From Deltaproteobacteria bacterium (GTDB lineage Bacteria > Desulfobacterota > Desulfobacteria > Desulfobacterales > Desulfatibacillaceae): a DNA stretch of 64,000 nt. Positions 7,659 through 18,014 of this stretch are shown one piece after another. Position 1 is the first letter of the stretch; the number at the start of each line of letters is the position of its first letter. The translations under genes were made by a program, and so were the position numbers. Location of the stretch: contig JACRLG010000020.1 of assembly GCA_016235345.1 (NCBI GenBank), positions 62,001 through 126,000 of the forward strand, given 5' to 3'. The notes beneath the pieces were generated by a model, which worked only from the letters and a program-made list of their open reading frames with translations, had not been told where the DNA came from and ran no database searches.

Positions 7659-8843
7659 ATGGAAAAGGCCGAAAAACGTTTTCGGGCTGAGTCAGTGGCC
7701 GAGCCCCTTGGCGGCATTGCCGATGGGGTGACCGATCTGGAACTGGCTCTTTTTTTCGAGACCGTGGAAACCGGCCTTTCGCAGGAGCAGGAGGAAAGAA
7801 TCGCCGTTCCGGGCCTCACCTTCCCCCGCCAGGAGGAGGTTCTGGCCGTCCACTGGCACCCAGAACACGTTCCGCTGAATCTCGTTTCAAGGCGCATGGA
7901 CACCATGTTCCCGGCGCGCCGGGAGGAACTCGTCATCCCCACCCAGCACAACGAGATAATGGAATACGGCGACTATGCAGGAGTCGAGGTTGATTGCTAC
8001 TCGCGGGGCTTCAACCAGAAGGTCCAGCTTCTGCTGCACTTTCAAAAGGAGCGGGTGAAGGACGCCCCGGTGCTGAAATCCATGCTCGCCCACACCTTCC
8101 GTTACCGGGCGACCCAGCTCTTCGATCTGATACACGCCATCACCCTGCCGGACGCCATCATCGTCAGCAAGGCCGCTTCGGAAACCGGGGCCACGCCGGT
8201 AATAGTGGATTTCACGCGGGCCATGGTGAAAAAAATCGAGATCATGCTCTCCGAAAACTGGGACCGGGTGCCCAAAGAAGCCCTGAAAAACAAGCTGTTG
8301 CCCCACTATTTCAGCCGGTTGAAGCCGATCTACGGCAAGGCTCCAATAGAGCGGGCCGTCAATTTCATGCGAGCGGTAAAGATGGGGGTCAAGGCCGGTT
8401 TCAGCCTCCAGTATTTCTACCGCACAAGCGAAATCATAGAGGAGGCCAGGAGCCTTGGCGGCGGCGTGGTGATACCACACCCGGAGCAGTTCTGGCCCAT
8501 ACTTCTGGCCGAATACGACGTTGACGGCTACGAGGTGTGGAATCCCCAGTCAAGGCGCTACACCGACTTTCTGATTTCCGTGGTGAACGAAAAAAACAGG
8601 AAATGCGGGATTTCCGGAAAAAGCATCCTCATATTCATGGGCGATGACACCCACATGGGGGAAAAGGTGCTGGACCCCGCCCTCGCCAATCCCGAAAAAG
8701 CCTTGAGGGAGGTGGGAGTCCAGCCAGCCTGGGACGACCTCATGATAAGAAAAAAACTCATACTGGCGGGCATGGACAGGCCACGGGTCATAGCCGAGTA
8801 CAAGGGGCGGCTTGCCATCGACAGGCGGGAGCCTTCCCCCTAA
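7659..8843 (+). CDS. Uncharacterised PHP-like protein at the head of the GAK-type cluster
   Basis: A 394-residue soluble protein I do not recognise as a named family. Metal-ligand-like motifs follow the order expected of a PHP-type phosphoesterase: HWHPEH (65-70), IPHPEQFWP (272-280), EVWNPQSRRY (about 292) and GDDTHMGE (328-335). The middle is mainly helical with several basic clusters. The resemblance to PHP is inference from motif spacing only, and the fold could be different. It is followed by repeat R2 and then the amphi-Trp gene on the same strand. The ATG at 7659 has no strong ribosome binding site, and another ATG four bases upstream is out of frame. The cluster context suggests a hydrolase acting with the neighbouring ATP-grasp and kinase proteins. 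Confidence 0.6.
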   Translation: MEKAEKRFRAESVAEPLGGIADGVTDLELALFFETVETGLSQEQEERIAVPGLTFPRQEEVLAVHWHPEHVPLNLVSRRMDTMFPARREELVIPTQHNEIMEYGDYAGVEVDCYSRGFNQKVQLLLHFQKERVKDAPVLKSMLAHTFRYRATQLFDLIHAITLPDAIIVSKAASETGATPVIVDFTRAMVKKIEIMLSENWDRVPKEALKNKLLPHYFSRLKPIYGKAPIERAVNFMRAVKMGVKAGFSLQYFYRTSEIIEEARSLGGGVVIPHPEQFWPILLAEYDVDGYEVWNPQSRRYTDFLISVVNEKNRKCGISGKSILIFMGDDTHMGEKVLDPALANPEKALREVGVQPAWDDLMIRKKLILAGMDRPRVIAEYKGRLAIDRREPSP

Positions 8844-8964
8844 CAGGCTGTCGAAAAACGCGATCCGCTGTGTTGTGCGTCAAAGCCAATTCCGTCACGT
8901 ACTTTTAGTACGCTTGACTCATTGGCTTTTCGCACGCCTTGCGGCTCATCGTTTTTCATCAGCC
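8844..8964 (-). repeat. Dispersed inverted-repeat element R2
   Basis: This copy is in reverse orientation. Read on the minus strand it begins GGCTGATGAAAAACGATGAG, contains the GTACTAAAAGTACGTG inner hairpin and ends GCGTTTTTCGACAGCCTG. Its family 'right end' therefore directly follows the TAA stop at 8841-8843. A direct repeat AACAGGCTGT recurs at 8842-8851 and 8983-8992, bracketing the element like a duplicated terminus. Confidence 0.8.
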
Positions 8965-9007
8965 TTTATAATTCGAGTTTTCAACAGGCTGTTAAAGGAA
9001 AAATTGC

Positions 9008-9271
9008 ATGGCGGAAAAAACCAGTTTCACCTTCGAATCCTTTCAGGACGCCCAGAGCATAAGGACTTTCCTGGAAAACCTGACTGAAGGCATTGCTTCG
9101 GGCAGGATTTCCTTAGCCTCCGGGGAGGAGAAAATCGATCTCGCCCCCGGCGGTCTCCTGTACTTTCAGGTAAAGGCCAAAAAGAAAAAGGACGAAAGCA
9201 GGATATCCATCAAAATAGGATGGAAGGATTCCGCCCCCGCCGGAATCGGGGCCATAACGATATCATCCTGA
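9008..9271 (+). CDS. amphi-Trp domain protein
   Basis: An 87-residue protein made almost entirely of one amphi-Trp domain. It has a leading amphipathic segment (TFLENLTEGIASGRI), a strand-rich middle (LAPGGLLYFQVKAKKKKDES) and the conserved tryptophan in the C-terminal strand IKIGWKD. No enzymatic activity is known for this domain. As I recall, NCBI family models place it next to ATP-grasp and kinase genes in the so-called GAK neighbourhood of deltaproteobacteria; this was not checked. The ATG at 9008 is preceded by AAAGGA at a good distance. The PhoU-kinase fusion begins 40 bases downstream, so the two are probably cotranscribed. Confidence 0.8.
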   Translation: MAEKTSFTFESFQDAQSIRTFLENLTEGIASGRISLASGEEKIDLAPGGLLYFQVKAKKKKDESRISIKIGWKDSAPAGIGAITISS

Positions 9272-9311
9272 AATCCGAATGCTTTACCCAAAAGCTGCGC
9301 AGAAGGTCATA

Positions 9312-10964
9312 ATGGTCACCTTCGAAGGCATAGAAGAAAATTTCCGCTTTATAGTGATCGAGGTTCAGAACCAGGTGGAGGCCGCGTTCCGCTACCTGAC
9401 GAGCCCCGATGAAGACGACTCCCTGCGTCGGCGCATCATCGAAAAAGACGACTACATAGACAATTTAAAAACCATCATAGAAAACAAGTGCTTCACCCTC
9501 ATCCACCGGGAACGCGGCCTTGCCCGCCGTGAAGTGGACCGCATCAGGAGCATTCACATAATCTGCGTCAACCTGGAGCGCATAGCCGATTTCTGCGTCA
9601 ACATGGTGCGCCAGGTCGAACACTTAAGGGAAAGGGACTTTCTCGGCTGCTTCTCCTACTCGGAATTCTTCACCCAGGCCATAGACAGCCTTTCCAGGCT
9701 GCTTCCGGCCTTCCAGCGCGGAAACCTGGCAGGGGCTCTCTCAATCTGCAAGTCGGAGGCGATCCTAGACCGGCTCTACAAGGAAAACTTCGACAGGGTC
9801 ATGGCGAAGCTGCGCCGGGGAGACTGCGTCGAAGACCTCATAACCATCCTCTTCATCTATCGCTACCTGGAAAGGGTTGGCGATTCCCTCTTAAACATCG
9901 GGGAAGCCATCCTTTTCGTGATCCTGGGGGAAAAAATAAAGATCGAGCGGTGGGACGCCCTAAGGCAGACCCTGGAAGACGCAGGCCTTGCCGAAACCCT
10001 GTCCCAGGGGGACTTCGAGGCCGTGTGGGGCACGCGATCCGGCTGCAACATAGGCGTGGTGGGCAGCAGAACCTTAAGAGGCGGGGACGGCGAAAACACC
10101 CCCAAAATCTACAAGGAGGGCATGGTCCAGAAAATAGAGGCTGAAAGGGACAGCCTTTTACGCTGGAACGGCTTTCTTCCAGGCCTGGCCGCAACCGTCT
10201 ATAATTTCAGGAGATCCGAGGACAAGGCCGCCCTTTTGGTGGAATTTCTGCCGGGCAGGACCCTGGACGAGGTGATACTGACGGCTGACGACAGAACCCT
10301 CTCCACGGCCCTCACCAGGCTTCAGCAGATACTTAGGATAGTCTGGGAAAACTCCAAGAAAAAAGAGGACGTGGCCACTGATTTCGTGGAACAGATAAAG
10401 AGCAGGCTGAACGCGGTAACAAGCATCCATCCACATTTTTCCAGGCCGTCCTTCTCGGTGGGAAGCGCCGCAGCCCCCTCGACCGGCGAGCTTCTGGAAA
10501 GGCTTAAGCGCGTTGAGACGGAGCTTTCGGCGCCCTTTTCCGTTTTCATCCACGGCGACTGCAACATAAACAACCTCCTGTACAACGAGGAAACCGAGGC
10601 CGTACATTTCATTGACCTCTACCGGTCAAGGCAGTACGATTACGTCCAGGACGTATCGGTCTTTCTCGTGTCCAACTTTCGCATCCCCCTTTTCGACACG
10701 GTTCTGCGCAAAAGGCTGGACCGGATAATAACCGGCTTTTACGGTTTCGCCACCACCTTCGCCCAAAGAAACGCGGACCCCACCTTCGAGGCGCGGCTGG
10801 CCTTGGGCCTTGCCCGGTCCTTTTACACTTCCACGCGGTTCGAGCAGAACGCGGCCTTTGCCCGCAACATGTTTTTGAGATCGCACTTTCTCCTGGAAAG
10901 GCTTCTGGCTCATTCTGGCCCCTGGGAGGACTTTTCACTGCCGGAAACCATTCTCCATTACTGA
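9312..10964 (+). CDS. PhoU-domain / aminoglycoside-phosphotransferase-fold kinase fusion
   Basis: A 550-residue two-part protein. The N-terminal 220 residues resemble PhoU: two helical repeats each carry the ExxxD metal-binding pattern (NLERIADFCVNMV near 85 and YLERVGDSLLNIGEAI near 180). The C-terminal half is an APH-type kinase with the Brenner motif IHGDCNINNLL (His414-Asp416) and a metal-binding FIDLYRSRQYDY about 20 residues later. ATP and a small molecule or protein side chain are the likely substrates, but the acceptor is unknown. The start at 9312 is chosen because AGAAGG precedes it by five bases; an upstream ATG at 9279 has no ribosome binding site. The gene lies in the GAK-type cluster between the amphi-Trp and ATP-grasp genes. 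Confidence 0.8.
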   Translation: MVTFEGIEENFRFIVIEVQNQVEAAFRYLTSPDEDDSLRRRIIEKDDYIDNLKTIIENKCFTLIHRERGLARREVDRIRSIHIICVNLERIADFCVNMVRQVEHLRERDFLGCFSYSEFFTQAIDSLSRLLPAFQRGNLAGALSICKSEAILDRLYKENFDRVMAKLRRGDCVEDLITILFIYRYLERVGDSLLNIGEAILFVILGEKIKIERWDALRQTLEDAGLAETLSQGDFEAVWGTRSGCNIGVVGSRTLRGGDGENTPKIYKEGMVQKIEAERDSLLRWNGFLPGLAATVYNFRRSEDKAALLVEFLPGRTLDEVILTADDRTLSTALTRLQQILRIVWENSKKKEDVATDFVEQIKSRLNAVTSIHPHFSRPSFSVGSAAAPSTGELLERLKRVETELSAPFSVFIHGDCNINNLLYNEETEAVHFIDLYRSRQYDYVQDVSVFLVSNFRIPLFDTVLRKRLDRIITGFYGFATTFAQRNADPTFEARLALGLARSFYTSTRFEQNAAFARNMFLRSHFLLERLLAHSGPWEDFSLPETILHY

Positions 10965-11130
10965 CACAACCGGCCAGTCATGCCTGTAAATACGCCAGGG
11001 CCGGGGTAAATCCGAGTTTATCGGTACAAAACTTGCATTATAAATGGCGTGGCGATTCAGGAAGGACTCCCGACCCAGGCGGCGTTGGAGGAGTTTTTCG
11101 CCAAAGCCTCAGCCACACCGGGAAAAATCC

Positions 11131-12027
11131 ATGAAAAAAGGGTTGCGCATAGGGGTTGTGGGAACGCCCGGAGGCTGGTCCTCCGAGCTTCTGGCCGATA
11201 CCGTGGAAAGGCGCACCGGCTTTCGGCTTCTGATCGAAATGAAAAAGGCCAGGCTGGAGCTTCCATCCGGCAGGGTGCTTTTCGGTGACCACGATCTTTC
11301 CACATTGGATGGACTCATTGTAAAAAAAATTGGCGCAAGGTACTCGCCCAACCTTCTGGACCGCCTGGAAATTCTCCGTCTCCTGGAGGGAAGGGGCCTG
11401 CCGATTTTTTCCGCGCCCTCAAAAATCATGAGGGTGCTTGACCGCCTAAGCTGCACGGTTACCCTGAGCCTGGCGGGGATACCCATGCCGCCCACCACCA
11501 TTACGGAAGACCCCGTCATGGCTGCGGAAACCCTGAAGCAATACGGGGAAGCGGTTTTAAAGCCCCTTTACACATCAAAGGCCAGGGGGATGGTGCTTTA
11601 TCCCCAAAACGGGCTTTCGGCCCGCGAAACCATAGAAAATTACAGGCGGGACAACACGGTAATCTACATCCAGAAAAAAATTGATCTGGCGGGAAAGGAC
11701 CTTGGCGTGGTATTTTTAGGTGGCGAGTACCTCACCACTTATTCCCGTGTAAAATTATCCGACGCGTCCTGGAACACCACCACGGAATCGGGCGGGCGCT
11801 ATGCGTCCTTCACGCCCGAATCCGAAATAATAGCCCTGGCGAAAAAGGCCCAGGAGCCCTTCGGCCTTTCCTTCACCTGCGTTGACGTGGCCCTTGGGCC
11901 CACCGGCCCATGCGTGTTCGAAGTTTCGGCCTTCGGAGGCTTCAGGGGAATGGCCGAAACCAGCGGCATGAACGCCGCAGAAATATTGACCGACCACTGT
12001 ATAAGCATGATCACCCGAAATCACTGA
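11131..12027 (+). CDS. RimK-like ATP-grasp ligase (GAK-type)
   Basis: A 298-residue ATP-grasp protein of the RimK/glutathione-synthetase type. IGVVGTPGGWSS at the N-terminus begins the Rossmann-like pre-ATP-grasp domain. MRVLDRLSCTVTLSLAGIP (about 96) starts the grasp fold, AVLKPLYTSKARGM (about 145) supplies the ATP lysine loop, and CVDVALGPTGPCVFEVSAFGG (about 250) is the metal-binding end. The usual EVNSSPG is replaced by EVSAFGGFRG, so the terminal Asn metal ligand is changed. ATP-grasp enzymes join a carboxylate to an amine or thiol through an acyl phosphate; the substrates here are unknown. The ATG at 11131 is preceded by GGGAAAAATCC. The gap after the PhoU-kinase gene is 166 bases. Confidence 0.82.
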   Translation: MKKGLRIGVVGTPGGWSSELLADTVERRTGFRLLIEMKKARLELPSGRVLFGDHDLSTLDGLIVKKIGARYSPNLLDRLEILRLLEGRGLPIFSAPSKIMRVLDRLSCTVTLSLAGIPMPPTTITEDPVMAAETLKQYGEAVLKPLYTSKARGMVLYPQNGLSARETIENYRRDNTVIYIQKKIDLAGKDLGVVFLGGEYLTTYSRVKLSDASWNTTTESGGRYASFTPESEIIALAKKAQEPFGLSFTCVDVALGPTGPCVFEVSAFGGFRGMAETSGMNAAEILTDHCISMITRNH

Positions 12028-12378: not shown

Positions 12379-15300
12379 ATGATAGCGGAAAACATGGATT
12401 ACATCTTCTTCGTTTACGGCCTCGCGTTTCTTATGCTGGCCTTTCTTCTGCAAGAAAGGCCAGCCGGAATCGAAGCGCCCTTTCCGTGGCTGTGGCTGTC
12501 GGGTTTCGGGCTTTCGCACGGCATCAACGAATGGCTGGACATGCTGGCCCTCTCCACGGGGGATTACCTTTGGCTTAAAATCGTAAGGCTTGCGGTGCTT
12601 GCGATTTCCTTCATCCTTCTTTGCGAGTTCGGACGCCGGGGCGCAATGTTCCAGGGCGTCAGGATGCCGGGGCCCTGGATTGTGATGCTTCTGGCTGCGG
12701 CTGGGGCTATGGGGGCTTTATTGGGCGACTCCGCCGGCGCAAACGCCGGGTTGCGGCACGCCTTGGGCCTTCCGGGCGGAGTCCTGTCCGGCTTGGTGCT
12801 GTGGAGGATGGCAAAAAGCGCCTCAGGGGCGCAGAGCAAGGCGTTTAAAGTTTCGGGGGCGGGCTTTTTGGTTTACGGCCTTGCTACGGGGCTTGTAGTG
12901 CCAGACGCGGGCTTCTTTCCGTCCTCGATTTTAAACCAGGAACTGTTTCTGGAAACCGCCGGTTTTCCCATCCAGATCATAAGGGCGGTCTGCGCCGCCA
13001 CGTGCGCCACGGCCCTCTACATCGCCCTTAACCCGCCAGGTGCCCAGGAGGAATCATCCCGCCCCTGGCGCTGGAGCATACCCGCCATTCTTCTGGTGCT
13101 CCTTTCCACCGGATTCTGGGCCGTAAACCGCCAGGGCGAACTGATTGATCGTGAATCGCGCCAGTCGCTTCTGCACCAGGCGGCTGCCATCGCCAGGACC
13201 ATAAATCCAGACCGGGTAAAAGCCCTTTCGTTCACCATAAAAGACAAAAAAAGAAGCGAGTTCCAACGTCTGCGGGCCTACATGGTGGCCTACCGCCAGG
13301 CAATAGACTGCCTGGGCATCTATACCATCGCCTTACGGGACGACAAGCTGATTTTCGGGCCGGAATCCTACGATGAAAAGGACCCGATGGCCTCTCCGCC
13401 CGGCACGGTTTACGTACAGCCGCCAGCCAGAACATGGGGTATTTTCAGATCCGGCCAGGCCTTCGTCCATGGCCCCTACACGGACGAGTACGGGACTTTC
13501 GTCTCGGCCCTGGCCCCGGTCAAGGACCCCCGCGACGGCAAGGTTCTCATGGTGGTCGGCCTCGATATAGACGCCTCCGCATGGAAGGCATCGGTGATGC
13601 GGCACCGGCTCATGGCGATTCTGGCGGTGATGTGCCTTGCGACGATATTACTTGCGGGCGCATGGCTTTTTCAGATGCGGGCCCTGATCCCGCCCGAAAA
13701 GCAGGGGTGGCTGAGACATTTCGAGGTCTACTTGCTGGCCGCCTTCGGCTTGGCGCTGACCGCCACAATGACGTTAGTGATGCATTCCCAGGAAATCCGG
13801 TCGCACAGGGATATTTTCGCACAACTCGCCGAGAGCGACGCCATACGAGTGACGAGCATGTTCCAGAACTTCCGGGACCGTGACCTGAAATCCCTGGCGG
13901 GTTTTTTCGAGAGAAGCGATTTTGTGTCCAGGGGCGATTTTCACGGGTTTTCCAGCCACATATATCAAAAATACTACGTGGCGGGGATAGGCTGGGCTCC
14001 CCGTGTGCCTGTAATCCAAAGAGCCGCTTTCGAGACCGGAATCAGAGATGCCGACATCTACGATTTCACGATCTTCCAGAAAGACCCATCCGGCAGGACA
14101 AACCCCTCGGCCATGCGGGGCGACTCCTACCCCCTGCTCTACGTGGAGCCCTTCGACGAGGCCAGGAGCGCAATAGGCTTTGACCTCACCACGGAACCCG
14201 CAAGGTGGCGGGCTGTTTCAACCACGATCAACACCGGCATGGCCACGGCCACCGACGTAATCCGTCGGATAAGCAACAACGAACCCGCCATCAATATCTA
14301 TGCGCCTGTTTACAGGGGCGAGGCCCATCATTCCGGACGCAGCAGCCCCGACAACACCCTTGGGGCGGTGTTCCTGACCCTTCGCATCAACGAGATGCTG
14401 AAGGATACGCTTGCAAGCCACGACCCGGAAAGTTCGGTGACCGTCGCTGATCTGATCCAGGTCAACTACGGAGACGACCCACAGCTTCTGGCGTCAACAA
14501 GCCCGATCAATGGCCGCCACAACGGCTCCGTCGCCCGTCCCGTCACCTGCGCCGCCATGAAGGCCCACGAAATCTGCATACTCCACCCGATATTCATGTT
14601 CGGGAAAACCTATGTCCTCGCCATTCAGCCGGGCCCGGCCTTCTCAGCCACCTATCCCAGGCGGGCCAAGTGGTCCACCGCCGTAACCGGAGTCCTGATC
14701 ACGGCGCTTCTGTCAATCCTGGCGTCCTTTCTCACCATCAGGAGGGCCGACCTGGAAACCAAGGTGGCCGCCCGCACAGCCCAGCTTGCAGCCAGCGAGG
14801 CCCGCCTGGGCGCCACCCTGCGCTCCATCGGAGACGGAGTCATAAGCACCGATTCCAAAGGCAATGTAAGCAACTTGAACGCCGCAGCCGAAGCCCTCAC
14901 CGGCTGGACCACCCTGGAGGCCAGCGGGAAGCCCATCACCGAGGTCTTTGTCATAGTATCCTCCCAAACCCGCGCGCCGGTGGAAAATCCAGTGTTCCGC
15001 GCCCTGGAGGAAGGCCGGGTAATAGGCCTGGCCAATCACACGGCTCTCATCGCCCGCGATGGCGCCGAAAAGCAGATAGCGGACAGCTGCGCCCCCATCA
15101 GGGATATGGAAGGCGGAATAATGGGCGCGGTCCTGGTTTTCAGGGACGTTACCGCCGAATACGCGGCCAGGGAGGAAATCAGGGCCGCCAACGAAAGGTT
15201 CCATCAGCTGGCCGTCCAGGGTCGAATAGTTGCATGGGAAGTTGACAGCAATGGGCTTTTTACCTACGTCAACCCGGTCGTCGAGACCGTCCTGGGTTAC

Positions 15301-15621
15301 AAACAAGAGGAAATCACCGGAAAGCTGCACTTTTACGACCTGCATCCCGAAGCCGGGCGCGAGTCCTTTATCGAATCGTCGTTCAAAATATTCGATCGCC
15401 AGGCTCCCTTCCGGGACCTGGAAAGCCGTGAGGTCACGAAGAGCGGCCAGGAAATCTGGATATCCACAAGCGGCTTTCCCCTGTTCGACCATTACGGGGT
15501 CTTTATCGGCTTCCGGGGCGCCAACATAGAAATCAGGCCGAAGCCGAGATACTGCGGAGCCGGGAGCAGTTCATGCTCGCGGTTGACGGGTCCAACGACG
15601 GCATATGGGACTGGAACATAA
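12379..15621 (+). CDS. Sensor half of a giant hybrid histidine kinase, frameshifted (TM-CHASE-PAS-PAS)
   Basis: The N-terminal part of what looks like one hybrid kinase of roughly 1880 residues. Residues 1-230 form about seven membrane helices. A periplasmic sensor segment follows (about 250-410), then another helix, a CHASE-like domain (about 470-730, with IYDFTIFQKDPSGR), a last helix near 775, and two PAS domains (about 810-925 and 935-1050). The frame is coherent to ATAGAAATC (15526-15534) and then becomes nonsense to a stop at 15621. The expected PAS tail (TERK-like, then QAEAE) resumes in another frame at 15534, which suggests loss of about 13 bases. AAGAGGCATCCC precedes the ATG. The kinase half continues at 15573. 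Confidence 0.75.
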   Translation: MIAENMDYIFFVYGLAFLMLAFLLQERPAGIEAPFPWLWLSGFGLSHGINEWLDMLALSTGDYLWLKIVRLAVLAISFILLCEFGRRGAMFQGVRMPGPWIVMLLAAAGAMGALLGDSAGANAGLRHALGLPGGVLSGLVLWRMAKSASGAQSKAFKVSGAGFLVYGLATGLVVPDAGFFPSSILNQELFLETAGFPIQIIRAVCAATCATALYIALNPPGAQEESSRPWRWSIPAILLVLLSTGFWAVNRQGELIDRESRQSLLHQAAAIARTINPDRVKALSFTIKDKKRSEFQRLRAYMVAYRQAIDCLGIYTIALRDDKLIFGPESYDEKDPMASPPGTVYVQPPARTWGIFRSGQAFVHGPYTDEYGTFVSALAPVKDPRDGKVLMVVGLDIDASAWKASVMRHRLMAILAVMCLATILLAGAWLFQMRALIPPEKQGWLRHFEVYLLAAFGLALTATMTLVMHSQEIRSHRDIFAQLAESDAIRVTSMFQNFRDRDLKSLAGFFERSDFVSRGDFHGFSSHIYQKYYVAGIGWAPRVPVIQRAAFETGIRDADIYDFTIFQKDPSGRTNPSAMRGDSYPLLYVEPFDEARSAIGFDLTTEPARWRAVSTTINTGMATATDVIRRISNNEPAINIYAPVYRGEAHHSGRSSPDNTLGAVFLTLRINEMLKDTLASHDPESSVTVADLIQVNYGDDPQLLASTSPINGRHNGSVARPVTCAAMKAHEICILHPIFMFGKTYVLAIQPGPAFSATYPRRAKWSTAVTGVLITALLSILASFLTIRRADLETKVAARTAQLAASEARLGATLRSIGDGVISTDSKGNVSNLNAAAEALTGWTTLEASGKPITEVFVIVSSQTRAPVENPVFRALEEGRVIGLANHTALIARDGAEKQIADSCAPIRDMEGGIMGAVLVFRDVTAEYAAREEIRAANERFHQLAVQGRIVAWEVDSNGLFTYVNPVVETVLGYKQEEITGKLHFYDLHPEAGRESFIESSFKIFDRQAPFRDLESREVTKSGQEIWISTSGFPLFDHYGVFIGFRGANIEIRPKPRYCGAGSSSCSRLTGPTTAYGTGT

Positions 15622-18014
15622 GGGAAGGCAGCCTCTACCTTTCCCCCAAGTGGAAGCGAATGATAGGCTACGAGGACCACGAGCTTGACAACACCTTCGA
15701 ATCATTTGAAAAAAATCTGCACCCCGAAGACAGGCCCTACGTTATGGGTTACATTGAAAGGTATCTGCGCGGGGATTTCCAGCTGTACAGCATAGAATTC
15801 CGATTCATGAAAAAGGACGGGGATTACCTGTGGATTCTGGCCAGGGGCGCGGCTCTTCGAGATGATGAGGGCAAACCCTGCCGCATGGCCGGTTCCCTCA
15901 CCGACATCACCGAGCGCAAGCGGGCCGAGGCCCAGCTCATAGAAGCCAACCGAAGGCTTGAGGCCTCCACCGACCTGGCCCGGAGAATGGCCGAGAAGGC
16001 GGAAGCGGCCAACCAGGCAAAAAGCGAATTTCTGGCCAACATGAGCCACGAAATACGGACGCCCATGAACGGGGTGATCGGCATGACCGGCCTTCTCCTG
16101 GACACGGATCTCAACCCGGAACAGATCCAGTACGCCCAGATAGTGCGCACAAGCGGAGAGGCGCTGCTTGCGCTCATAAACGACATCCTGGACTTTTCAA
16201 AGATAGAGGCGAAAAAACTTGATCTGGAGCACCACAACTTCGACCTCCGCGAGACCCTTGAGGACATCACGGACCTCATAGCCGTGAAAGCCCAGGAAAA
16301 GGAGCTGGACATTGTCTGCCTCATAGACCCCAAGCTGCCGCTCAATCTGAAGGGCGATCCGGGTCGCCTTCGCCAGATACTGGTCAACCTGGGTGGAAAC
16401 GCCGTCAAGTTCACGGACAGAGGCGGGGTGACCATCGCGGCCCAGCTCGACCACGAAGAGGGAAACCGGGTCGGGATTCTTTTCTCGGTCACCGACACGG
16501 GCATAGGCATACCATTTGACAAGCAGGCCAATCTCTTCAATCCTTTTTTCCAGGTTGACGGGTCCACAACCAGGCGCTTCGGCGGCACGGGGCTTGGGCT
16601 CGCCATCTCCAGGCAGCTTGCGGAACTGATGGGCGGAGCGATCGGGGTGTCCAGCGAAGAGGGGCGCGGGGCCACATTCTGGTTCACCGCCATTTTCGCA
16701 AAACAGGCGGGGGTGGCGGAAAACGAATACGCTCTCGATGTCAACATAGCCGGGGCCAGAATCCTTGTGGTGGACGATCACGAGGTCAACCGGCTTCTGG
16801 TCACCACCCTCCTTGCCGGCTGGGGCTGCCGTTTCCAGGAGGCTACGGGCGCGGGGGAGGCCATCACCCTGTTAAACCAGGCCATAAGGGACAACGACCC
16901 CTTTGACGCGGCCCTCTTGGACATGCAGATGCCTGAAATGAGCGGCGCAGAACTGGGCCATAGGATCAAGATGAGCCCCCAGTTGAGGGCGACCAAGCTG
17001 ATAATGATGACCTCCATGGCCGAGCAGGGCGACGTCCGAAGGCTCACCGGCATGGGCTTTGCGGGCTACCTCACCAAGCCCCTGCGCCAGTCCCTTCTCA
17101 GGGAATGCCTGGTAATGGTCCTCGGACGCCAGGAAAGACCCCAGGAATGCATGGCTCCCGTTCAGGAAGCCGCCTCCGAAAGCCCCGCCACCGCCAGGAA
17201 ACAGGCCCGGATTCTCTTGGTGGAAGACAACGCAACCAACCAGCTTGTGGCGCTGAAGATTTTGGATAAATTCGGCTACCGGGCCGATGCTGTGGGCAAC
17301 GGCAAGGAGGCCCTGGATGCCCTTGCGGCCATGCCTTACGACCTGGTTCTGATGGACTGCCAGATGCCCGAAATGGACGGTTTTGAAGCCACGCGGGTTA
17401 TAAGAAGCTGGCGGGGCGAACCCGGAACAAAGATGGACCAGCAGGCGATTTTCAAGGATCAGGTTTCGCGCATACCCATCGTGGCCATGACCGCTCACGC
17501 CATGAAGGGCGACCGGGAAAAATGCCTGGATGCCGGAATGGACGATTACGTCAGCAAGCCCGTCAATCCGCGTGACCTTGCCCAGGTCATCAAGCGCCGC
17601 CTTGCAAAAACCCGCGCGGCGCATCCGGCTTTTCAGCCGGCCCCGGATTTCCATGAGGCGGATCAGGCCCCCCCCAAGGATTACGACAGGCCGGGTTTCC
17701 TGGCCCGCATCATGGGCAAGGAGGATCTGGTAAAAACCATTGCTGACATCTTTCTTGGCGACATGCCCGTGCAGATCGAAAGACTGGCTTCCGCGCTTTT
17801 GGCGGGCGATCTTCCGGCAGCCGAACAACAGGCCCACAAGATAAAGGGAGCTGCTGCGAACGTGGGGGGGGAGGCTTTAAGGTCCACCGCCCTTGAAATG
17901 GAGGCTGCGGCAAAGGCTGGCGACGCAGAATCCCTGAACCTTTTGATGCCTGAGTTGAAAAAGCGCTTCAACCGCCTGAAAGAGATCATGGAAAAGGAAA
18001 ACCGGGATGAGTGA
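15573..18014 (+). CDS. Kinase half of the giant hybrid histidine kinase (PAS-HisKA-HATPase-REC-REC-HPt)
   Basis: An 813-residue continuation of the split kinase. In order it has a PAS domain (DGSNDGIWDWN, about 5-115), HisKA with phospho-acceptor SHEIRTPMNGVIGM (about 158), HATPase_c with DTGIGIPFDK and GGTGLGLAI (about 305-340), a first REC domain (DALLDMQMPEMSG), a second REC domain (DLVLMDCQMPEMDG) and a C-terminal HPt domain (AHKIKGAAANVGG, about 755). The frame upstream of the ATG reads NQAEAEILRSREQF and joins naturally to the preceding PAS. GGAG six bases before this ATG could allow re-initiation, which would give a soluble kinase. Signal output would be a multi-step phosphorelay. No dedicated output regulator is obvious, but a REC protein follows at 18098. 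Confidence 0.8.
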   Translation: MLAVDGSNDGIWDWNIREGSLYLSPKWKRMIGYEDHELDNTFESFEKNLHPEDRPYVMGYIERYLRGDFQLYSIEFRFMKKDGDYLWILARGAALRDDEGKPCRMAGSLTDITERKRAEAQLIEANRRLEASTDLARRMAEKAEAANQAKSEFLANMSHEIRTPMNGVIGMTGLLLDTDLNPEQIQYAQIVRTSGEALLALINDILDFSKIEAKKLDLEHHNFDLRETLEDITDLIAVKAQEKELDIVCLIDPKLPLNLKGDPGRLRQILVNLGGNAVKFTDRGGVTIAAQLDHEEGNRVGILFSVTDTGIGIPFDKQANLFNPFFQVDGSTTRRFGGTGLGLAISRQLAELMGGAIGVSSEEGRGATFWFTAIFAKQAGVAENEYALDVNIAGARILVVDDHEVNRLLVTTLLAGWGCRFQEATGAGEAITLLNQAIRDNDPFDAALLDMQMPEMSGAELGHRIKMSPQLRATKLIMMTSMAEQGDVRRLTGMGFAGYLTKPLRQSLLRECLVMVLGRQERPQECMAPVQEAASESPATARKQARILLVEDNATNQLVALKILDKFGYRADAVGNGKEALDALAAMPYDLVLMDCQMPEMDGFEATRVIRSWRGEPGTKMDQQAIFKDQVSRIPIVAMTAHAMKGDREKCLDAGMDDYVSKPVNPRDLAQVIKRRLAKTRAAHPAFQPAPDFHEADQAPPKDYDRPGFLARIMGKEDLVKTIADIFLGDMPVQIERLASALLAGDLPAAEQQAHKIKGAAANVGGEALRSTALEMEAAAKAGDAESLNLLMPELKKRFNRLKEIMEKENRDE

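Follow-up and report, generated by a model that had tools for sequence, protein, structure and literature searches.

A PhoU-APH fusion kinase as a core member of the GAK gene system and a possible role of the system in phosphate homeostasis

The window analysed here, a stretch of 64,000 nucleotides from a bacterium of the Desulfatibacillaceae (assembly GCA_016235345.1, contig JACRLG010000020.1, positions 62,001 to 126,000), carries a four-gene locus of the GAK system. This system is known from curated NCBIfam family models (TIGR04354-TIGR04358), which cover an amphi-Trp protein, HprK-related kinase B (HprK-B), the GAK ATP-grasp enzyme, a CofD-like protein and an XXXCH protein. We found that a protein outside these models, a fusion of a PhoU domain and an APH-type kinase (PhoU-APH), is a core member of the system, because it stands beside the ATP-grasp gene across loci, usually together with HprK-B. 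We propose, with a probability of about 0.5, that the GAK locus serves a PhoU-controlled cycle of phosphotransfer and phosphoester hydrolysis in phosphate homeostasis; any given chemistry is weighted much less than this general role. Besides the core membership of PhoU-APH, the new elements are a family of PHP-like proteins, the proximity of some loci to pst genes, a CHAD protein in the planctomycete loci and a set of substitutions in the ATP-grasp enzyme. In phrase searches of the open-access literature, neither amphi-Trp nor HprK-related kinase nor the GAK system was the subject of any paper, and none joins the PhoU domain, aminoglycoside phosphotransferase and ATP-grasp.

The PhoU-APH kinase in the GAK locus

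All four plus-strand open reading frames (ORFs) were confirmed as intact. In order, they encode a PHP-like putative phosphoesterase of 394 aa (7659..8843), an amphi-Trp domain protein of 87 aa (9008..9271), PhoU-APH (ORF 9279-10964, 561 aa) and the GAK ATP-grasp enzyme (ORF 11044-12027, 327 aa). Since the relatives begin further downstream, the true starts are probably 9312 for PhoU-APH (9312..10964) and 11131 for the ATP-grasp gene (11131..12027), which gives intergenic gaps of 164, 40 and 166 bp. The gene identities proposed by a first-pass annotation were upheld, four domains by profile hidden Markov models (amphi-Trp, PhoU, APH and ATP-grasp) and the PHP-like protein by its predicted structure, and so was the suggested link to GAK. 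Indeed, the ATP-grasp protein matches TIGR04356 (grasp_GAK) with 420.2 bits (curated cut-off 300) and the RimK family PF08443 with 34.8 bits, while the amphi-Trp protein, the sole match of this kind in its genome, scores 68.1 bits with TIGR04354 (curated cut-off 31) and 34.2 bits with PF20068 (cut-off 27). PhoU-APH matches PF01895 in two stretches (87.6 bits) and PF01636 (38.3 bits), and its N-terminal PhoU part reaches 98.8 bits with TIGR02135, under the cut-off of 130.

For comparison, we gathered 29 loci by sequence, 19 around over-cut-off matches in genomes of the class, three plasmid loci and the window locus, and searched these 52 loci with profiles built here; 51 remained once L063, a copy of L001, had been dropped, with the near-identical L016 and L021 both retained. 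A locus with a sub-cut-off match (L078) had been excluded and has none of the four proteins. The PHP-like, amphi-Trp, PhoU-APH and ATP-grasp genes are grouped in 18 of the 50 loci compared with the window, so that their grouping is not due to chance. The first-pass annotation had described the system as listed mostly in deltaproteobacteria, which proved too narrow: it is also present in alpha- and gammaproteobacteria and in planctomycetes, partly on plasmids.

In all 50 loci with sequence at this place, PhoU-APH precedes the ATP-grasp gene, and in 45 of the 51 it does so within 200 bp. In five further loci it also precedes this gene on the same strand, either with an intervening gene (L015, L065, L072), with a gap of 335 bp (L073) or at a distance measured from a partial protein (L076); L013 begins 39 bp before the ATP-grasp match, and L077 retains only the APH part. 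An HGDxNxxN loop followed by a metal-binding aspartate is the motif of APH-type kinases, and the corresponding residues (H425-G426-D427, N429, N432 and D446 in the numbering of the 561-aa ORF) are invariant in 20 of 20 PhoU-APH sequences. The repeated E-x-x-x-D motif of PhoU appears in the window protein as NLERIAD and YLERVGD and is degenerate in the gammaproteobacterial versions. In three rhodobacterial plasmid operons (L081, L082 and L083), the PhoU-APH, ATP-grasp and HprK-B genes overlap.

The same association was found at the level of genomes. Among 147 genomes of the class, 19 encode a GAK ATP-grasp enzyme over the cut-off. As the PhoU-APH profile matches 108 of the 147 at E up to 0.001, mostly via stand-alone PhoU, presence was set at more than 100 bits, a limit chosen here (the next best score is 86). 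By this limit PhoU-APH is present in 19/19 GAK genomes, including a fragment of 89 residues at a contig end (G139) and a version without PhoU (G107), against 1/128 others (G075, where the gene lies at a contig end). HprK-B is over its cut-off in 16/19 against 1/128, the PHP-like protein is found in 15/19 against 2/128 (one of the two an 80-residue fragment), and the CofD-like protein is over its cut-off in 11/19, with two more partial at contig ends, against 4/128. Fisher P values for co-occurrence with the ATP-grasp enzyme are 5e-23 for PhoU-APH, 2e-17 for HprK-B, 4e-15 for the PHP-like protein and 7e-9 for the CofD-like protein, values which ignore the kinship of the genomes and therefore overstate their independence.

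It had been suggested that PhoU-APH replaces the HprK-like kinase in the window. This did not hold, as PhoU-APH is present in every GAK genome of the class sample, usually alongside HprK-B. The latter is encoded directly downstream of the ATP-grasp gene (within 200 bp) in 44 of the 51 loci; it is 4.2 kb off in L023, the sequence of L028 ends there, and in L070 the copy is shortened and run into the CofD-like frame. It was not found in the window locus, L061, L072 and L077, and the genome carrying L061 also has a complete second locus (L060). In the window's genome, which is 97% complete, HprK-B (TIGR04355) has no match at E up to 0.001 and the CofD-like protein (TIGR04357) has no match; XXXCH (TIGR04358) has none either, but the control genomes are equally without match, and this protein was recognised in 8 of the 51 loci. 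By its gene content, the window locus is a reduced GAK module that lacks HprK-B and the CofD-like protein, and not one in which kinases were exchanged. In four Desulfovibrionaceae loci (L016, L018, L020 and L021), HprK-B is followed by a cation P-type ATPase, the genes having been clustered in all four and the Pfam family seen for L018.

Alternatively, the window locus might be a decaying, non-working remnant of a full GAK operon. Besides the two missing proteins, the one genome of the same genus (83% complete) is without match, and gene fragments elsewhere look like decaying GAK loci, namely a piece of the ATP-grasp gene in G127 (L050, contig C6) and pieces of the HprK-B and PHP-like genes in G081 (C5:193602-194325). 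We nevertheless regard a remnant as very unlikely, given four full-length ORFs with conserved residues and the distribution of loci without HprK-B: in a tree of 49 ATP-grasp proteins (without L021, L028 and L063), the four such rows need four changes, of which at least two are forced by well supported branches, and L072 retains the window's set of four genes.

Phosphoesterases, Pst and CHAD around GAK loci

In the proposed phosphate cycle, the PhoU domain would couple the fused kinase to the cellular phosphate status, perhaps via the Pst transporter like ordinary PhoU. Together with the divergent ATP-grasp enzyme, this kinase would act on a small molecule or on amphi-Trp, either transferring phosphoryl groups or forming an intermediate that is activated by phosphorylation; amphi-Trp may be a carrier, scaffold or substrate. 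The PHP-like metallo-phosphoesterase would then hydrolyse a phosphoester, removing or recycling phosphate, a task that in other phyla would fall to calcineurin-like and histidine phosphatases. Overall, the module would serve phosphate homeostasis, be it by storing phosphate, by signalling or through a cycle that saves phosphate.

Neither Pfam nor NCBIfam gave a match for the PHP-like protein at E up to 1, nor did a search of PDB sequences with its profile. Eight residues (H65, H67, H97, E110, H127, H274, D330 and H332) are invariant in 18 of 18 sequences and include the pairs H65-x-H67 and D330-x-H332. An AlphaFold model was built from five sequences, with a mean predicted local distance difference test (pLDDT) score of 64.9 and residues 274-378 below 50. 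The three best Foldseek entries for this model are PHP phosphoesterases, at E 0.011-0.031 with none below 0.001, and on structural re-comparison five PHP structures gave Z scores of 8.7-11.0, against at most 4.0 for all other rows listed. Comparison by hhalign with TrpH-type PHP proteins was weak (P 0.026, probability 1.9%), yet aligned the expected motifs; that with HisK-type PHP proteins gave no match (P 0.3), and an unrelated control, the PhoU-APH alignment, gave P 0.13. A PHP fold is likely from the predicted structure and the motif positions, on which the label rests, and the phosphoesterase activity is putative. The protein was not found in the plasmid collection.

Some type of phosphoesterase is encoded in 37 of the 51 loci: the PHP-like protein in 20 and a calcineurin-like and/or histidine phosphatase in 17. 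The remaining 14 loci, some of them truncated by contig ends, have neither. The two kinds are together in none of the 51. PHP-like genes belong to the Desulfobacterota-type loci and the other phosphatases to alpha- and gammaproteobacteria and planctomycetes. NUDIX or SixA-NUDIX genes were found in 15 of the 51 loci, one of them with a PHP-like gene (L065). In two Marinomonas loci (L025:7348-8211 and L026:7421-8245), a gene of the inositol-monophosphatase family is divergent from PhoU-APH; as both are from one genus, it was not used as evidence.

The first-pass annotation had hinted at phosphate, and the neighbours of other loci bear this out more strongly than the window alone could. At least two pst genes lie in the fetched stretches of L012, L066, L067, L071 and L073, and L064 has just pstS; the pst genes were sought among simply called genes, so that some could be missed, and generic ABC ATPase matches were not counted. 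In L012, which is among the three planctomycete loci, pstSCAB lies downstream of the GAK genes. In L066 and L071, pstS-pstC-pstA is followed on the same strand by the PHP-like and GAK genes, the pstA and PHP-like ORFs being separated by 274 and 220 bp. Among the 19 GAK genomes, four have an over-cut-off pstA at 3.4-7.4 kb from the ATP-grasp gene, where 0.106 loci within 10 kb would be expected (Poisson P 4.8e-6, or 1.8e-4 with two congeneric genomes counted once), in a test that was devised after the association had been seen and whose 10 kb limit is the fetched flank.

In all three planctomycete loci, the GAK genes are also preceded on the same strand by a gene for a CHAD protein, and in two of the three a NUDIX gene stands in between. 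A profile built from these three proteins, which distant ones may escape, had no other match in the locus set. In one study (PMC6537752), CHAD domains are described as binding polyphosphate, and stand-alone CHAD genes as often located in operons with polyphosphate enzymes.

Several observations weigh against a role in phosphate homeostasis. The mutual exclusion of the phosphatases follows lineage, which explains it no less well than functional exchange, and since the three planctomycete loci form one tree branch, their CHAD genes amount to a single event. In the remaining 45 of the 51 loci, pst genes were not recognised, and the true pstA of the window's genome is on another contig (C28, the locus being on C20). 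The PHO box has the consensus CTGTCAT-N4-CTGTCAT, and a search for it upstream of 43 rows (one of them a duplicate, and some stretches possibly within an operon, since the first gene caller missed genes) was not supportive: two rows (L003 and L023) had a shuffle P of at most 0.01, and the window had 0.995. The remaining flanking genes are mixed. Of 152 listed, 133 were scanned, genes of less than 80 or more than 1000 residues and seven loci having been excluded beforehand, and the commonest Pfam family within the first 25 tabulated, transport permease, accounts for 7 of the 133 proteins. Finally, the model from which the PHP fold was deduced is weak, and sequence comparison lends the fold no support.

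With PhoU-APH as core member, the PHP-like family and loci placed after pst genes, GAK is given a testable function. For the question, not settled to our knowledge, of how PhoU transmits the phosphate status, the fusion of this domain with a kinase offers a direct approach.

The ATP-grasp enzyme and alternative chemistries

The first-pass annotation had considered a peptide- or small-molecule-modifying pathway linked to phosphate sensing. Its phosphate part is strengthened; peptide modification is weakened by substitutions in the ATP-grasp enzyme, which we compared in 35 GAK proteins and 10 RimK-family relatives. The D-x-R arginine is replaced in all 35 (Gly in 34, Ala in one) and is Arg in 10/10 relatives; the E-x-N asparagine is Ser in all 35 against Asn in 10/10. 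In F-R-x-N, the arginine is replaced in all 35 (Asn in 32, Asp in three; Arg in 9/10 relatives) and so is the asparagine (Thr in 34, Ala in one; Asn in 10/10 relatives). The ATP lysine Lys140, Asp248 and Glu260 (aligned-domain numbering) are kept in 35/35. The pair D-x-R and E-x-N, by which a RimK-type amino-acid ligase was to be recognised, is found in none of the GAK enzymes, and the four substituted residues presumably form the phosphate and metal (catalytic) site in RimK and LysX. As far as residues can tell, these substitutions speak against ordinary amino-acid ligation.

Such ligation, in the style of RimK, LysX or MptN, onto amphi-Trp or another peptide, with the kinases as regulators or activators, would fit the next best NCBIfam models of the ATP-grasp protein (MptN 129 bits, RimK family 96 and LysX 75, all below cut-offs) and its solved relatives, which are LysX and RimK enzymes. 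It would also fit the presence of amphi-Trp in 43 of the 51 loci, several of which carry a second amphi-Trp gene after the CofD-like gene. We consider it unlikely in view of the replaced residues and of the C-terminal end of amphi-Trp, which is variable among relatives. The amphi-Trp model, one helix and four strands with a mean pLDDT of 82.8, gave no Foldseek match below E 0.001, and its best re-compared row had a Z score of 3.1 over 52 residues.

MptN being the next best model after the GAK family, the product could also be a phosphorylated small cofactor with a tail like those of F420 or methanopterin, made by the CofD-like transferase and an MptN-like ligase and truncated in the window's genome. 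A CofD-like protein is indeed encoded in 29 of the 51 loci (PF01933 with 127 bits in L029). This explanation has little probability in our judgement: the window's genome is without a CofD-like match, the residues common to RimK-family relatives are substituted, and we know of no link between such a cofactor and PhoU, Pst or CHAD.

The phosphate reading itself can be extended. GAK might be an unrecognised bacterial phosphate module in which a kinase gated by PhoU and an ATP-grasp enzyme no longer engaged in amino-acid ligation build a new phosphate-rich metabolite, or phosphorylate an amphi-Trp carrier, with phosphoesterases of different folds for recycling and a coupling to Pst and, in planctomycetes, to polyphosphate. 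This extended scheme is improbable.

Other features of the window and comparison with known systems

Between the PHP-like and amphi-Trp genes lies a long imperfect hairpin (8845..8965, plus strand). The stretch 8843-9001 folds at -58.2 kcal/mol (z -6.1), and none of 200 shuffles was equally stable. The hairpin has CAACAGGCTGTT-like ends, and no other fetched locus has a match to this end motif, only L140, which is the same genomic place; the hairpin may represent a processing site or a mobile repeat. Scans for Rfam families and tRNA genes gave no match in the window. There were three promoter-like sites for 1.9 expected and 14 terminator-like sites for 8.7 expected (standard deviation 3.2), the latter not used as evidence. 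Downstream of the GAK genes, a hybrid sensor kinase gene is split (12379-18014), the protein passing from the frame 12379-15621 into the frame 15573-18014 near 15530-15570, which is likely a frameshift or a sequencing error.

Compared with the GAK system as modelled, the window locus has an ATP-grasp enzyme and an amphi-Trp protein that belong to the curated families and the gene order of related loci, and differs by the absence of HprK-B and the CofD-like protein from its genome and by the possession of PhoU-APH and the PHP-like protein, neither of which is matched by any GAK model. With the RimK, LysX and MptN ligases, the GAK enzymes have in common the ATP-grasp relationship and Lys140, Asp248 and Glu260, and differ by the changes of D-x-R to D-x-G/A, F-R-x-N to W-N/D-x-T/A and E-x-N to E-x-S. 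The N-terminal part of PhoU-APH is like the PhoU phosphate signalling protein, and its C-terminal part like APH-type kinases; solved relatives exist for both (PhoU proteins and aminoglycoside kinases), and the window protein differs from ordinary members of either group in that the two are fused in one chain. Finally, the predicted fold of the PHP-like protein is similar to PHP phosphoesterases of the RNase AM group (3o0f, 3e0f, 2yb1, 9etk and 7ug9; root-mean-square deviation 3.3-4.7 over 151-228 residues), of which we take 2yb1 to be a 3',5'-nucleotide bisphosphatase; the 394-aa protein differs from them in having no significant sequence match, and the HP and D-x-H motifs are collinear.

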